In this document: positions 1 through 62,712 of the stretch, one piece after another
Layout of the letters: each line of letters opens with the position of its first letter
How positions within the stretch are numbered: position 1 is the first letter of the stretch
The notes under the pieces: model-generated
What the model was told of the DNA's origin: nothing
Databases searched by the model: none
What the model saw: only the letters and a program-made list of their open reading frames with translations
Translations under genes and position numbers: made by a program
From: Bacteroidia bacterium
GTDB lineage: Bacteria > Bacteroidota > Bacteroidia > Cytophagales > Flammeovirgaceae
NCBI GenBank assembly: GCA_030425505.1
Contig: JAUIAB010000006.1
Span: 1-64,000, forward strand
DNA: 64,000 nucleotides
Reading direction: 5' to 3'

Positions 1-114
1 ACCAATTTTATTACTAATCTTATCTCTGGACTAATCGCTTATTCCTTTTTCCCTAAAAAGCCTGCTATCAAGTACAAAACTAACCTTTCCAATCAATTAG
101 CTTTACTTTTATAA
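1..114 (+). pseudogene. IS982-family transposase, C-terminal end (cut by window edge)
   Basis: Frame 1 is open from the first base to a TAA at 112-114 and gives 37 residues that include NLISGLIAYSFFPKKPAIK. The pattern N-L-(I/V)-x-G-L-I-A-Y followed by KKP is, from memory of the family, the typical C-terminus of IS982-type DDE transposases in Bacteroidota. Only the tail is inside the window, so it cannot be told whether the whole transposase gene is intact. It lies on the plus strand, convergent with metK. Family assignment rests on a short stretch but the match is distinctive. Confidence 0.65.
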
Positions 115-180
115 TCGAACTCAGGTTTATAATAAGTGAATGAGAAGCTATAAAAAATAATACTGAATTAAACCTTATAA

Positions 181-13835: not shown

Positions 13836-14780
13836 ATGGAAGTATTAATTATTGATCATTTCCATGAGACTTTAGTGCCATTGCTCAAGGAGATTGGGGT
13901 AGAGCCATTATATGAGCCAACTATTACATCCGGGGAAGTTGAAAAGGCTATAACTAATGTAGATGGCATTATTCTAAGAAGCAAAACTCCTATAACAGAA
14001 GCGTTAATTAAAAATGCTCCAAAATTGAAGTTCATAGCAAGGGGAGGAGCAGGCTTGGATCAAATAGATATACACTGCCTTAAAAACAGGAATATACGAT
14101 TAATATCAACGCCCGAGGGAAATAGAAATGCAGTTGCTGAACATGCTATGGGATTACTGCTTTCTCTACTAAATAAAATTCCACAGTCAAACCAAGAAGT
14201 TAAAAATTTCATTTGGGATAGAGAAAAAAATAGAGGAGAAGAGCTAAGTGGCAAAACAGTAGGCATTATTGGCTATGGAAACATGGGGCAAAGTTTTGCT
14301 AAAAAATTAAAAAGCTTTGACTGTGTAGTAATAGCATATGACAAGTACAAGCAAGGTTTTGCAGATGGTTTTGTAAAAGAAGTAACACTGGAAGAAATAC
14401 AAGCAAAGTCAGATATACTTAGCTTACATACACCTTTAACTCAAGAAACAAAAGGAATGATAGATGAATCATTTATGTCTTCCTTAAAAAAAAATATTTA
14501 CCTAATTAACACCTCAAGGGGGGAGGTTCTCCCAACAGAAGTAGTGCTGAATATGCTCAAGGCTGGGAAAATAAAAGGAGCTGCACTAGATGTTTTAGAA
14601 AATGAAAACATACGAGAATTAGAAGGGAAAGATAAAGACAATCTTGAAAAACTAGCAAGCTGGGAAAATATAATATTAACACCACATATAGCTGGTCTAA
14701 CATATGAATCCAATATAAAAATTAATGAAGCAATAGTATCTAAGATAAAAGCCCTATTAGATGAAACAGCCCATGCCTGA
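13836..14780 (+). CDS. D-isomer 2-hydroxyacid dehydrogenase (SerA-like)
   Basis: This 314-aa NAD-dependent dehydrogenase resembles D-3-phosphoglycerate dehydrogenase without its regulatory domain. The substrate lobe is at 1-95 and about 285-314, and the Rossmann fold has GIIGYGNMG near 144. The catalytic Arg is in NTSRGEV (near 227), Glu near 256 and His in LTPHIAG (near 282). The absence of a C-terminal ACT domain means serine feedback would not act directly. It may be SerA or a general 2-hydroxyacid dehydrogenase. Its last codons and stop lie inside the 83-bp repeat that precedes gldB. Confidence 0.85.
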   Translation: MEVLIIDHFHETLVPLLKEIGVEPLYEPTITSGEVEKAITNVDGIILRSKTPITEALIKNAPKLKFIARGGAGLDQIDIHCLKNRNIRLISTPEGNRNAVAEHAMGLLLSLLNKIPQSNQEVKNFIWDREKNRGEELSGKTVGIIGYGNMGQSFAKKLKSFDCVVIAYDKYKQGFADGFVKEVTLEEIQAKSDILSLHTPLTQETKGMIDESFMSSLKKNIYLINTSRGEVLPTEVVLNMLKAGKIKGAALDVLENENIRELEGKDKDNLEKLASWENIILTPHIAGLTYESNIKINEAIVSKIKALLDETAHA

Positions 14781-14854
14781 TTTAAAATTGAGGCACACTC
14801 AAAGCAATAATTAAGGTATATGCAAAAAAAACTAGGCAGGTCACAAATTTTAAA
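14772..14854 (+). repeat. 83-bp leader repeat, copy 1 (upstream of gldB)
   Basis: This copy runs from catgcctga to ttttaaa in the sense of gldB and ends 3 bp before its ATG at 14858. Its reverse complement matches the copies at 31757-31839 (66 of 83 positions by hand alignment) and 45518-45598. Best conserved are ttaaaattgaggcacac near the 5' end and taggcaggtcacaaattt near the 3' end. The element overlaps the final codons of the upstream dehydrogenase gene. Function unknown; a promoter/leader or a mobile short repeat are both possible. Confidence 0.8.
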
Positions 14855-14857
14855 CAT

Positions 14858-15892
14858 ATGAAACTATTTGAGGATAAAATAAAAATAAGTGTATTACTAA
14901 TCACAATATGTTTTTTGATTAATGGCTGCAATTCTAAAGAAGAGAACAACATAGATGTTTCTCATATAAACGTGGAAGTTGATACTCGAAGGTTGGAAAA
15001 AGAAGTGTTTAGTTTGAGTAGTAAAGAAGAAATAAAAAAATTCTTAAGAAAAAACCCAACTATTTCACAGCAGTACTTTAACCTTGGTAAGCGATTTAAT
15101 GAAGAAGAAGTAACTCGAAATATAAACCAACTTATTTCTTTGCCATACAACGATACTCTTTATAATGAAATTGCAGAAAAAATCTTTGTTGACTTTTCAA
15201 AATATGAAGAAGAAATAAAAAAAGGTTTTCAATATTTAAAACACTACTACCCAGAGTATAAGATACCTAAAATATGTACCATGATTTCTGGTTTTTCCAA
15301 TTTCGGGTTTGGGGGAGACATAATATTTACGGATAGTTTAATTGTAATAGGTCTAGATTACTTTGGGGGTAACAAACTAAGGTATAGACCGCCTGAAGTT
15401 CCTACTTACATATTAGATCGATACCAGCCCGAGTATATTTCTACAACAATATTTACTTTGCTATCTTCTAAATTCAATAATTACGATAATAAAGACAATG
15501 TTCTGTTGTCTGATATAATTTATTATGGCAAAGCTTACTTTTTCACAAAAAAACTTCTTCCGTTTAAAGCAGATAGTTTAATAGTTGGGTATTCAGGGCA
15601 AGAAATGGCAGATGTAAGCTACAATGAAAAAAAGATATGGAGTCACTTTGTAGATAATAAGTTGTTTTTTGAGACGAATGATTTTATAAAAAATAAATAT
15701 GTAGGTGAAAGACCTAAAGTATTAGAAATATCTAGCTATTGTCCAGGGAGAATTGGCAGGTGGCTAGGGTGGAAAATTATTGATGCATATGCAAAAAATA
15801 ATACTGGAAAAGAACTAAAAGGCATAATGAAAAACCCTAGTGCAAGAAAACTCTTTCAAGAATCTAAGTACAAACCTGGCTTTAAAGAGTAA
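14858..15892 (+). CDS. gldB: Gliding motility lipoprotein GldB
   Basis: GldB is an inner-membrane or periplasmic lipoprotein needed for gliding and stability of the type IX secretion/gliding apparatus in Flavobacterium johnsoniae. The 344-aa product has a lipobox, LINGC, with Cys 24. The family's Zn-protease-like fold region is recognisable as YYPEYKIPKICTMISGFSNF and IIFTDSLIVIGLDYFGG (residues about 130-170), and SSYCPGRIGRWLGWKI near 290. No gldC follows, unlike F. johnsoniae where gldB and gldC are adjacent. Translation starts 3 bp after the 83-bp leader repeat. Confidence 0.88.
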   Translation: MKLFEDKIKISVLLITICFLINGCNSKEENNIDVSHINVEVDTRRLEKEVFSLSSKEEIKKFLRKNPTISQQYFNLGKRFNEEEVTRNINQLISLPYNDTLYNEIAEKIFVDFSKYEEEIKKGFQYLKHYYPEYKIPKICTMISGFSNFGFGGDIIFTDSLIVIGLDYFGGNKLRYRPPEVPTYILDRYQPEYISTTIFTLLSSKFNNYDNKDNVLLSDIIYYGKAYFFTKKLLPFKADSLIVGYSGQEMADVSYNEKKIWSHFVDNKLFFETNDFIKNKYVGERPKVLEISSYCPGRIGRWLGWKIIDAYAKNNTGKELKGIMKNPSARKLFQESKYKPGFKE

Positions 15893-30337: not shown

Positions 30338-31753
30338 TTAATGAAAGGCTGTGTCAAAATAGATAGAAAACTCTGTCCCTTTATCTTTTATGCTTTTTAC
30401 AGCGATATCTGCTTTATGAGTATTAATAATGTTTTGAACAGTTGTTAGCCCTAATCCCATTCCATCTTTTTTGTTTGTGTAGAATGCATCAAATAACTTC
30501 TCAAGTTCTTTTTTAGGAATCCCACTTCCATTGTCTTTAATTTTAGCAATTATTTTTTCATTTTTCTTCAATGTTTCAATGGTTATTGTACCATTTGAAT
30601 GAGTTATTGCTTCAATAGCATTAAGTATTAAGTTCAAAAACGCAATTTTTATATAGTCTTTATCAACATTTATGGGAGGAAGGTTATTCTTAAATTTTTT
30701 GACCAGCTTTATTTCACGAAGCTGCATTCTATCTTCTGTTGCAAGAAGAGTTTCTTCAAGAATTTGATTTATCGAATATTTCTCCAGTTTTAAGTCTTTT
30801 GGCTTAGATGATTCGAGTAAGTCTGTTATCAGGGTATCAATTCTTAATGTATTTCTTTTAAGAATGTTTATATAGTCTTTCGTTTCAGGTATGGTTTCAA
30901 TTAACTCTTCTAGTTGTTCTAAAGAAAGAGATATGTTAGTTAAAGGATTTCTAATTTCATGAGCTATGCTGCGTGCTAATTTTCCTGTAGTGGATAGTCG
31001 TTCTGTTTTTAAAAGCTGACTTCTAAGATCTTTCTCTTTTGTTATATCTTTAACTATTCCTTGATAAATTCTTTTTTGATTGTCATCAATAATTTCAAAA
31101 AAGCTTATTAATACAGTTATTGGTTTTTTTTGCTTGTTTAAAAGAATTACTTCTTTACTTTCAACGTTTCTATTTGTTTGAAGCTCTTTTTTTAGTTTTT
31201 CAAACGAAAGCTTATTTTTAAAAAATTGTTTAAAGTTTTTAGTGCCTTTAGAGTGAAAAAAATGTTCTTGGAATTCGCTATTTGAGTCGATAATATTTAG
31301 ATTTTTATCTACTATAATTACTGGTATTATAGATTTTTCAAAAAGCTTATTGTATTGATCCTTTTTTACTGCTACTTCAGCGTCTATTTCAGCCTGACTG
31401 GCATTAGGGGTTAGATATAGGGTTAGATCTGAGTTTGTATAAATTACTTTTATTTGAAAGTTGCCATTATTTATTCTTGTATTTATTATGAATTCAAATC
31501 TGTTCTCTTTAAAGATTTTTTTATTTAGTATTTCTAAAACTATATATTTAAATATTTCATCTATTCTTCTGCCAATAGTAAGCTTTTGATCAATAAGAAA
31601 GGTTTTTTTGAATAAGCTATTGGCTTTAGCTAGAAGGAGGTGATTGATAGTAGTTGTTTCTTTTATCGGAGAGTCAAATACAGCTACGCAAATAGGAAGG
31701 TTATCTATTACACTTTCTAGTTTAGGTTCGGATAATTCGGTAATGTTTTTCAT
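30338..31753 (-). CDS. PAS-domain sensor histidine kinase (NtrB-like)
   Basis: This is a soluble sensor kinase with two PAS-like regions (about 10-110 and 130-240), HisKA with the phospho-acceptor in SIAHEIRNP (His 265 from this start) and a HATPase domain (IKDNGSGIPKKEL, then GMGLGLTTVQN). The gene product lacks membrane helices. The ATG at 31753 is preferred: a longer frame to 31804 would read 17 codons out of the 83-bp leader repeat. It lies downstream of an NtrC-type regulator and a receiver gene, so these form a signalling set. Confidence 0.9.
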   Translation of the reverse strand: MKNITELSEPKLESVIDNLPICVAVFDSPIKETTTINHLLLAKANSLFKKTFLIDQKLTIGRRIDEIFKYIVLEILNKKIFKENRFEFIINTRINNGNFQIKVIYTNSDLTLYLTPNASQAEIDAEVAVKKDQYNKLFEKSIIPVIIVDKNLNIIDSNSEFQEHFFHSKGTKNFKQFFKNKLSFEKLKKELQTNRNVESKEVILLNKQKKPITVLISFFEIIDDNQKRIYQGIVKDITKEKDLRSQLLKTERLSTTGKLARSIAHEIRNPLTNISLSLEQLEELIETIPETKDYINILKRNTLRIDTLITDLLESSKPKDLKLEKYSINQILEETLLATEDRMQLREIKLVKKFKNNLPPINVDKDYIKIAFLNLILNAIEAITHSNGTITIETLKKNEKIIAKIKDNGSGIPKKELEKLFDAFYTNKKDGMGLGLTTVQNIINTHKADIAVKSIKDKGTEFSIYFDTAFH

Positions 31754-31756
31754 GTA

Positions 31757-31839
31757 TTTAAAATTTGTGACTGACTTAATTTGTTTGACACACATCTTAA
31801 TCATTGCTTTTTGTGTGCCTTAACTTTAAATCAGACATG
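31757..31839 (-). repeat. 83-bp leader repeat, copy 2 (upstream of the PAS kinase)
   Basis: On the minus strand this sequence runs from 31839 to 31757 and ends 3 bp before the kinase ATG at 31751-31753. It is 83 bp long like copy 1, with 66 of 83 positions equal by hand alignment, and includes aaggcacac and gtcacaaattttaaa. It occupies the gap between the NtrC-type gene (stop at 31861) and the kinase gene. Confidence 0.8.
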
Positions 31840-31860
31840 GTCTATTCCATCTGTTAGTTT

Positions 31861-44935: not shown

Positions 44936-45514
44936 TTATTTTTGTGCTTCTTTAAGTTGAAACTGAGGATTTTTGAGCTTCACCCATTCAAAAATACCAA
45001 ACATTAACGTTCCGTAAATAAGTGTACCAAAAAGGAAATTCCTTTCAAAAGGAATCGCAGCGACTAAGCATGTCCAAAATCCTGCTAAAGTTTTAGGGTA
45101 CATAGTTCCGCTCATCCAAACACCAAAGTCAGTTACTATCCAATGTATGGCAACTACCAAAATACTGGATAGAAAAAAGTTAGTAATAGAGAGTTTTTTT
45201 CTGAGCAGTCTTCCTACCAATACCATTAAAATAAAAGCCCCATATACCCAGTAAAAACCTGAGTAGAACAGAGAGTAATTAGCATTAAAAAAGCTAAGCA
45301 AAGCATCGCTTATAAGAAGAGAAAGCAATGGAAAGAGAAAAGCCTTTGAGTTTTGCTGAAAATACGCTCCTCCAAATAATGCCATTGCTCCAATAGGGGT
45401 GAAGTTTGCCAGTAACACGTCTTTACCAGCTAAAAATACTCTACTTATAGCTACAATCGCTATAAAAGATAAAAGAAGAATAAATCTTGGGTTAATATAG
45501 TCTTTGTTAATCAT
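44936..45514 (-). CDS. DUF6580-like small integral membrane protein
   Basis: This 192-aa protein has five or six membrane helices and the sequence NFTPIGAMALFGGAYFQ near 37, typical of the DUF6580 'putative transport protein' family, similar in layout to the S components of ECF-type vitamin transporters. The substrate cannot be told and no energising component is near. The ATG is 3 bp from the 81-bp leader repeat, as with gldB and the PAS kinase. Confidence 0.7.
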   Translation of the reverse strand: MINKDYINPRFILLLSFIAIVAISRVFLAGKDVLLANFTPIGAMALFGGAYFQQNSKAFLFPLLSLLISDALLSFFNANYSLFYSGFYWVYGAFILMVLVGRLLRKKLSITNFFLSSILVVAIHWIVTDFGVWMSGTMYPKTLAGFWTCLVAAIPFERNFLFGTLIYGTLMFGIFEWVKLKNPQFQLKEAQK

Positions 45515-45517
45515 CTA

Positions 45518-45598
45518 TTTAAAGTTTGTGACCTGCCTAATTTGTTTGACGTACAGCTAAATCTTCCTTCTGTGTGCCTCAATTTTAAATTAGACATG
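45518..45598 (-). repeat. 81-bp leader repeat, copy 3 (upstream of the DUF6580-like gene)
   Basis: On the minus strand the element runs 45598 to 45518 and stops 3 bp before the ATG at 45512-45514. It is two bases shorter than the other copies but keeps the best-conserved blocks: aattgaggcacac, aaacaaattaggcaggtcacaaa and tttaaa. The orientation relative to the gene is the same as in copies 1 and 2. Confidence 0.8.
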
Positions 45599-60372: not shown

Positions 60373-61104
60373 TTACCTCCACTTTCTTGAAGAAAGAATA
60401 AACTTTGTCAAGAAAAGAAAAACAACAGTAATACTCAAAAAATAGAATAAATCCCTGGAGTCCACCAGTCCTCTACTGATTGAGTTGTAATGATAATCAA
60501 TGCCAAACTTTTGAAGAATAAAAGAAGAAGATGACCAAAGGTCAATTGCAGCGATAGAGGAAAAGCCATCATAGAAAAAGAAGCAAAGAAACACTGACAA
60601 AAGAAAAGCGACAATTTGATTATCAGAAATAGAAGAGGCTGTTATTCCAATGGATGTAAAAACTGAAGCTAAAAAAAGAAGACCCAGGTAAGAACCAATC
60701 ACAGCCGCGGTATCAATATTTCCTTCGGGCTGACCAAGCTTGTAGATTGAAAAATAGTAAATAGTAGTTGGTAAAATTGCTATAAGAACTAGAAAAAGAC
60801 TACCCAGGTACTTGCCTAAAATAATTTCAAACTCAGATAAAGGCTTAGTTAATAATAACTCAAGCGTTTTTTCTTTTTTCTCTTCCGAAAAAGAGCGCAT
60901 AGTAATGGCTGGGATGAGAAAAATAAAAACATAAGGAGCAATCATAAAAAAGGAAGATAAACTAGCAAAACCTCCTTCTAAAACACTAGTCTGAGGGAAT
61001 ACCCAAACAAATAAGCCAAGAATAACCCAGAAAAAAGTTAACGTTATATAGCCAATAAGTGAGTTGAAATAAGCTTTTACTTCTTTAATAAATAATGGAA
61101 ACAT
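60373..61104 (-). CDS. gldF: Gliding motility ABC transporter permease GldF
   Basis: This 243-aa ABC-2 type membrane permease has six helices and the family sequence FPLFIKEVKAYFNSLIGYIT near 2-21 and FSEEKKEKTLELLLTKPLS near 72. In Flavobacterium it forms a transporter with GldA (ATPase) and GldG and is needed for gliding. Here gldG does not follow: only 64 bp separate the stop from the convergent hemC. The upstream side is a 774-bp stretch without a confident gene. Confidence 0.88.
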   Translation of the reverse strand: MFPLFIKEVKAYFNSLIGYITLTFFWVILGLFVWVFPQTSVLEGGFASLSSFFMIAPYVFIFLIPAITMRSFSEEKKEKTLELLLTKPLSEFEIILGKYLGSLFLVLIAILPTTIYYFSIYKLGQPEGNIDTAAVIGSYLGLLFLASVFTSIGITASSISDNQIVAFLLSVFLCFFFYDGFSSIAAIDLWSSSSFILQKFGIDYHYNSISRGLVDSRDLFYFLSITVVFLFLTKFILSSRKWR

Positions 61105-61520
61105 AACTTACAGTTAAGTTACAAAATTACTGACAAATGATTAAATTGATATATTCTGTATTTGTTTAATGAGTTAGTTGAATGCCAGAAGAGAGAGAGA
61201 ATGGATAATCTTTCAGGAAGTATGCATTGCACATTCTTGTTTGAGTCGCAGATTTAATTGCGCCTTTTAGTGAAGCTTTGCCCAAACAAACGATGTTTTG
61301 TTAGTTAAAGCAACTCAAGCTTTAAATATCCCTTGATAGTTTTTATCGTAAGCATAATGATATGCAATAAAAGAGCGTCAAAAATTTGGCGTTCTCGAAG
61401 GTAAAACGCTACAATGAAAAACGTTAGAGCGTTCAAATTTTTAAGATTTTTCTTTGATTCGTTTCTTTTTATCTCTAAAAAGAAATGAATATTAATCAAG
61501 TGGAGCTAATAATCATACAA
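61105..61520. other. Gene-free stretch upstream of gldF
   Basis: A 416-bp stretch has no gene I can support. A 64-codon minus-strand frame at 61305-61499 has no recognisable domain. The DNA is less AT-rich between about 61370 and 61430, and a gcg-rich pattern (gagcgtc, ggcgttc, aaaacgct, gagcgttc) suggests a different origin from the surrounding genes. A minus-strand TAATTTTG (61122-61129 on the plus strand as CAAAATTA) could be the -7 box of gldF. It may contain remnants of an older insertion. Confidence 0.35.
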
Positions 61521-61757
61521 AGAGATATTCAGAGGTATTGTAAATGACCGATACTCAACACGTAAAACAGTTGTATTAAGATGAGAAATGCCCTGATAAT
61601 TAATAAATTGGTAAAAAACGAGGTTATATTGTCTAAAAACAATTCTATAAAACCATTTTTTCACTTATTCCATATTCAAAGCAAAGTATAATAGTGATTG
61701 TTTTTACTCTCTTTTTTTAACTGATTTCTATGCGGGTTCGTACCTCCGAATATCTCT
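61521..61757. mobile_element. Candidate MITE with IS982-like ends
   Basis: This 237-bp element starts with agagatattcagaggta (61521-61537) and ends with tacctccgaatatctct (61741-61757); the ends are inverted copies with one mismatch in 17. Both flanks show ACAA (61517-61520 and 61758-61761), consistent with a target-site duplication. It has no ORF, so it must rely on a transposase in trans. The right end resembles the repeat at 214-230, near the IS982-type transposase. Confidence 0.6.
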
Positions 61758-61809
61758 ACAAAAATAACCTTAGAGCAATAAATAGAGTAGCACAATATAT
61801 TGAGAAAAT

Positions 61810-61878: not shown

Positions 61879-62712
61879 CTAGAACTGCACCCCAACAGAC
61901 ATAGTCCAAGTACTAGTGTTCAAATTAGTATTTGGCTGATCTGCTGCAAAAGAAGTATTAATACCTTGGTTGATATTAGAAAGACCCCATCTATATCGTA
62001 CATCAAATACTAAATCAAATGGCATAGACTCTATTGCATAAGGAACACCTAAGCCAATATTAATTCCAAAATCAAAACCATTGAACTCAGAGTTAACCAT
62101 TTCATAGTCAACCGTATTAATAACATTTACCCCTCCATTGTTATTATTATCCAGCTCAGTTCTAATCTCACGGCGATCAATAGAACCAATATTCCATGCA
62201 AAAGATGGACCTATTACCAAATGTGGATTCAATCTCTCTAATATATTTAAAGGGTTTACAACTAGCACGGGATCTAAATTAAGATAATTTAAAGTATAGG
62301 TGTGGTATGCATTCCAACTTCCTCCTCTTAATTCCGCTATTTCAGCTAAAATATCATTAGGACCGTTTTGTCTATGCAAGACATTAGCATGACCAGTTTG
62401 AAACCAGCCTAGCTCACCCCTTACAGAGAGAGTAGAAGTTAAATGATAAGTGAAAAAGCCAGAAAGAGCAAACCCATTCCTAGAGTTTCTTCTACCTTCA
62501 TTATTACTAGCATCACCAAGTTTAACTTGATTCCACTTAAAAGTCCCGAAAGTTAAACCAACTCTACCACCAAAATTAAATGTACCAGGAGTGTTGCCTG
62601 TTGGCAAGTCTTCTTCTTCATCGACAGACATCTGCTGACCATTAACAGAAAATGCACCTACACCTATGATCATAAGTGCAAAAACCAACGATTTAAATGA
62701 ATATCTTTTCAT
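61879..62712 (-). CDS. Predicted outer-membrane beta-barrel protein
   Basis: This 277-aa protein has a signal peptide (about 1-25) and a short acidic segment DEEEDLPTG, followed by alternating strands (FNFGGRVGLTFGTFKWNQV near 46, TLSVRGELGWFQTG near 93) and the final TMSVGVQF, which ends in an aromatic residue like outer-membrane barrels. The first part of the mature protein resembles PorT-like proteins. Function unknown. It is the outer neighbour of the lipoprotein gene at the window end, which is divergent. Confidence 0.75.
   Translation of the reverse strand: MKRYSFKSLVFALMIIGVGAFSVNGQQMSVDEEEDLPTGNTPGTFNFGGRVGLTFGTFKWNQVKLGDASNNEGRRNSRNGFALSGFFTYHLTSTLSVRGELGWFQTGHANVLHRQNGPNDILAEIAELRGGSWNAYHTYTLNYLNLDPVLVVNPLNILERLNPHLVIGPSFAWNIGSIDRREIRTELDNNNNGGVNVINTVDYEMVNSEFNGFDFGINIGLGVPYAIESMPFDLVFDVRYRWGLSNINQGINTSFAADQPNTNLNTSTWTMSVGVQF

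Follow-up and report, generated by a model that had tools for sequence, protein, structure and literature searches.

A gene-less MITE-like element 5' of gldF is one of six copies of a small, apparently orphan repeat family in a Bacteroidia genome

A short stretch with inverted ends in the spacer 5' of gldF raises the question of whether it is a mobile element and, if so, which transposase would have moved it. It lies in the 64,000 nucleotides of DNA analysed here (the window), which are C18:1-64000 of a 2.95-Mb assembly of 41 contigs, 95.7% complete. The original prediction described it as a non-autonomous MITE-like element with IS982-type ends, moved by the IS982-type transposase whose tail lies at the window start. 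The features at the locus are as follows.

61521-61757, no strand: MITE-like element as given, 237 bp
61522-61756: mobile unit if the 6-bp duplication is counted, 235 bp
61521-61537, plus strand: left terminal inverted repeat, AGAGATATTCAGAGGTA
61741-61757, minus strand: right terminal inverted repeat, TACCTCCGAATATCTCT, 16/17 paired with the left
61516-61521: left copy of the putative target duplication, TACAAA
61757-61762: right copy of the putative target duplication, TACAAA

The two arms are separated by 203 bases and pair at 16 of 17 positions, as predicted (17-bp inverted ends with one mismatch), and the ACAA claimed for both flanks is seen at 61517-61520 and 61758-61761; with the frame shifted 1 base inward these flanks become the perfect 6-bp repeat TACAAA. 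The stretch is without a credible gene, the largest overlapping ORF having 53 aa, which bears out the claim that it holds no ORF, and at 237 bp with no transposase gene it falls within the size range of MITEs (50 - 1000 bp). It is the sole inverted repeat of such quality in the window at an arm spacing of 100 - 600. At least one equally good inverted repeat was held by 20 of 40 dinucleotide-preserving shuffles of the window (mean 1.0 per window, overlapping frames being counted separately), so that such a repeat by itself does not count as evidence for an element. These shuffles favour the reading that a chance inverted repeat has acquired chance flanks, but that reading is refuted by the homologous copies, five in number, of which four have both ends, and its probability is negligible.

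The element is taken as real because it belongs to a six-copy family, and not on account of the inverted repeat alone. When the assembly was searched with the window copy and with the copy on contig C27 as queries, the further genomic copies that the original prediction proposed to look for were found, five in number, giving a gene-less family of six.

C18 61521-61757: copy, 237 bp (the window copy)
C27:48639-48895: copy, 257 bp
C35:33699-33955: copy, 257 bp
C26:65106-65348: copy, 243 bp
C4:104304-104537: copy, 234 bp
C14 near 886-1014: copy, truncated, right half missing

The window copy matched the C27 copy with a BLAST E value of 1.6e-8 over the first 139 bases of the window copy only, and the C35, C26, C14 and C4 copies matched C27 with E values from 9e-117 to 5e-24; no match after the six had an E value better than 0.015. 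Identity is 95.4% between C27 and C35, and 57 - 63% between the window copy and each of the other four full copies across the whole six-row alignment. Beyond the inverted ends the copies are no longer similar, their flanks being unrelated. One other candidate, a weak 124-bp pair at C18:70376-70499, had 3 mismatches per end and was left as chance.

All five full copies have terminal ends close to A-GRGATATTCAGARGTA, the consensus of the 16 - 17 bp ends being GRGATATTCAGARGTA. Pairing between the ends, out of 17 positions, is 16 in the window copy, 15 in C27, 15 in C35, 11 in C4 and 10 in C26, and at the third end base the window copy has A:T instead of G:C, both arms having altered together. 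Pairs of the end helix and of an inner stem are kept in 87.2% of cells, compared with 35 - 55% when slid; a pair-count shuffle control gave no support, since 28 of 500 shuffles reached the paired share and 117 of 500 the covariation score. Matches between the 6-bp flanks were complete for the window copy (TACAAA) and for C4 (TAAGTA), 5/6 for C26 and for C35, and 2/6 for C27, in a frame that counts the outermost A and T as target. Of 120 left-right permutations of the flanks, 6 gave a total as high as the 24/30 observed, which is therefore modest evidence, and the frame was picked after looking, so that a 6-bp target duplication is likely in the family but not proven. The absence of a duplication at C27, the truncation of the C14 copy and the low identity of the window copy to the other full copies count against the family reading. 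No empty site was seen, and the relatives listed include no other genome of the same genus. The MITE-like reading of 61521-61757 is nevertheless well supported, and the claim of a non-autonomous element holds: the unit is repeated, has inverted ends and a likely duplicated target, and carries no gene.

The IS982 part of the prediction fared differently. Two features near the window start bear on it.

1-127, plus strand: 3' end of an IS982-type IS truncated at the contig start, with the transposase tail at 1-114 and the IS end at about 127; not part of the MITE-like element
184-229: 46-bp hairpin outside the IS, with arms at 184-200 and 213-229 that resemble the MITE ends

The 37 aa encoded by the tail match 129 plasmid records, and among the 20 matches listed 6 are annotated as IS982 family transposase. 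Contig C12 carries the DNA of this IS at each of its ends, with C18 and C12 diverging just after base 127, and the opposite (left) end of the IS was found in C6 and C40; a Flavobacterium plasmid has the same IS end after the same transposase tail. That the same 127 bases end contig C12 marks this IS as present in several copies and as a cause of breaks in the assembly. A profile search of the assembly with PF13612 (the IS982 transposase domain) gave 0 matches, there being only end fragments at contig ends, which fits a repeat collapsed at contig ends, and the assembly may lack an intact copy.

At all of these places (C18/C12, C6, C40 and the Flavobacterium plasmid) the IS982-type ends are without the 17-bp sequence of the element: in this genome they are AACCTGAGTTCGATTA, present at about 127 as the reverse complement, whereas the element begins with AGAGATATTCAGAGGTA. 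The ends claimed to be of IS982 type are therefore a different inverted repeat, and movement by the transposase at the window start does not follow, since the IS there terminates at about 127 in the reverse complement of AACCTGAGTTCGATTA and not in AGRGATATTCAGARGTA. Derivation from the IS982-type element drew on the arm near the IS tail, which does differ by two bases from the element's right end as had been stated, although it lies at 213-229 and not at 214-230, and it can also draw on the IS982-driven MITEs of about 240 bp known in Cardinium (PMC9769881). However, the arm lies outside the IS, some 86 bases beyond its end, and pairs with a partner of its own at 184-200. With the ends differing, IS982 parentage was rejected and is very improbable. 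The hairpin arms are one and two mismatches away from the MITE ends, no direct repeat or target duplication was seen by eye at its flanks, and upstream of it stands a gene that by eye looks like metK; the hairpin may be a terminator or a family remnant, and its kinship to the family is unproven.

MITE ends usually match those of an autonomous transposon in the same genome, although this is not required and orphans exist. A profile search of the assembly with PF01609 gave seven matches, mostly at contig ends, and the six loci compared represent two IS types, one (C7, C13 and C36) with the end CCCAAATTACGCATTAGGGATTTG and the other (C20, C22 and C33) with the end GAGAGCTTTGCAAAATTC. Both are multi-copy and leave transposase remnants, mostly at contig ends. 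As parents they were rejected, their best match to the MITE ends having 5 mismatches in 17. Thus no autonomous partner was found in the ~96% complete assembly among the families searched, namely the IS982-type and the two PF01609-type elements. The end pattern, with at most 1 mismatch, matched 14 times in 8 of 17 other genomes, but every one of these 14 fell within an open frame of 252 codons or more and was judged chance, and no partner was recognised in these 17 relatives. A search for copies in 146 other relatives, with 5 candidates per genome scored, gave six genomes with matches of 22 - 49 bases only, likewise judged chance. The two-arm pattern was absent from one-per-species genome contigs and from viral contigs, the inner-stem pattern was absent from viral contigs, and BLAST against plasmids and phages gave no relative of the element at the sensitivity used. 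The family is found in the source genome and was not detected in the other genomes searched.

The setting of the copies is fairly uniform. All six lie in spacers between larger ORFs, and by ORF positions five of the six lie between convergent genes, a count made on mechanical ORF lists with shorter ORFs passed over. The window copy is the exception, lying between two minus-strand genes, 5' of gldF. The genes concerned are given below.

60373-61104, minus strand: gldF (TIGR03518)
61879-62712, minus strand: outer-membrane barrel gene (PF13568)
C8:10858-12495: gldG, intact (TIGR03521, 581.7 bits)

The spacer had been described as a place where an adjacent gldG might be expected. In Marinigracilibium, however, the order is an ABC ATPase gene, gldF and then, 3' of gldF, a gldG-like gene identified by eye, so that the gap 5' of gldF is not the site of a lost gldG. 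With gldG intact on C8, the idea that the element is an insert replacing gldG was rejected. The source genome does have gldF apart from gldG, unlike the gldF-gldG order of Marinigracilibium.

The reading preferred here, to which a probability of roughly 0.8 is given, is that 61521-61757 is one copy of a small (234 - 257 bp) non-coding MITE-like transposable element of an orphan family moved in trans. The element would have been moved between gene-poor spacers by a transposase supplied in trans and working on the 16 - 17 bp ends, each landing duplicating about 6 bp (TNNNNA, roughly TANNTA), and copies would have survived in harmless spacers, which together would account for the copies, their ends, their flanks and the absence of a gene. 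The driver would not be the resident IS982 type and has no representative found in the assembly, so that the family looks orphaned, probably through loss of the driver.

An unlikely competitor is that the element is not mobile now and is an intergenic structured repeat, such as a terminator or RNA-stability element, which spread long ago. The position of five copies between convergent genes would suit such a role, as would the C27 copy, whose fold is much more stable than those of its shuffles (z -5.6, 0/200), and the inner stem kept in four of the six copies. The window copy, however, has lost that stem and lies 5' of gldF. A terminator scan of the region of the C35 copy found no terminator-like site, and Rfam gave nothing for the window copy and one weak unrelated match beside C27. 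Long terminal stems are in any case expected of any MITE, the stable folding of the C27 copy and the moderately stable folding of the window copy (z -2.5) are what a long inverted-repeat element should show, and selection against promoter damage would also yield landing downstream of genes. A role of the copies at transcript ends is possible. Equally tentative is a combined version, in which a transposase of an unrecognised type with a 6-bp TANNTA-like target moved a family that prefers, or survives in, convergent-gene spacers, and in which the long hairpin may be a two-way transcript end.

A second repeat, about 97 - 103 bp long, came to light in the same genome, where it was matched at least 41 times, 40 out of 119 candidates having been scored.

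14761-14858, plus strand: dispersed ~97-103 bp repeat
near 31748-31857 and 45505-45598, minus strand: dispersed ~97-103 bp repeat
L173-L192: 20 further stretches with the repeat

Of 23 stretches that were examined, 21 have the end of the repeat at the ATG, mostly as ATGAAA, of an open frame that follows. The distance from that ATG back to the first ATG of the repeat itself could be measured in 22 cases and was 97 bases in 13 of them. A mini-ORF similar to MKQTMSDLKLRHTRSND is present in many copies, and L173 has two repeats in tandem. Neither plasmids nor viral contigs gave a match, and Rfam gave only a weak one to a CRISPR repeat (E 0.41). The repeat resembles an element positioned at start codons, is more unusual than the MITE-like element and deserves separate study.

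The outcome for the MITE-like element is a corrected IS982 assignment and an orphan family for which the ends, the copies and the likely length of the duplication are documented. Its main use is in annotation of the source genome, and the preponderance of convergent-gene spacers is a small testable lead.

The MITE class is well known in Bacteroidota, as two reports indicate (PMC9769881, PMC4596501). MITECca01 of Cardinium cOegib is described in the first of these as about 240 bp long, with 169 copies and intact parental IS982 elements (ISCca4). The present family resembles it in its length of about 240 bp, lack of a transposase gene, inverted ends, mostly intergenic position and restriction to one lineage, but has six copies, no parent that was found and ends that are not those of the local IS982 type (PMC9769881). 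In Porphyromonas gingivalis, MITE-like elements are reported to share ends with resident IS elements; like the present family, MITE239 and the others belong to a Bacteroidota genome, are short and non-coding and have inverted repeats, but the ends of MITE239 (ACGTGAGTTCGAT...) resemble the IS982 ends of the source genome and not those of the 61521-61757 element (PMC4596501). Prokaryotic type II MITEs, as outlined in a review, can fold into stable structures and resemble a parent at most at the ends; the present family is similarly foldable, with parent similarity limited at most to the ends, but differs from type II MITEs generally in that no parent was identified (PMC10969869). In this company the element at 61521-61757 is an orphan member of an ordinary MITE-like kind and not an IS982 derivative.
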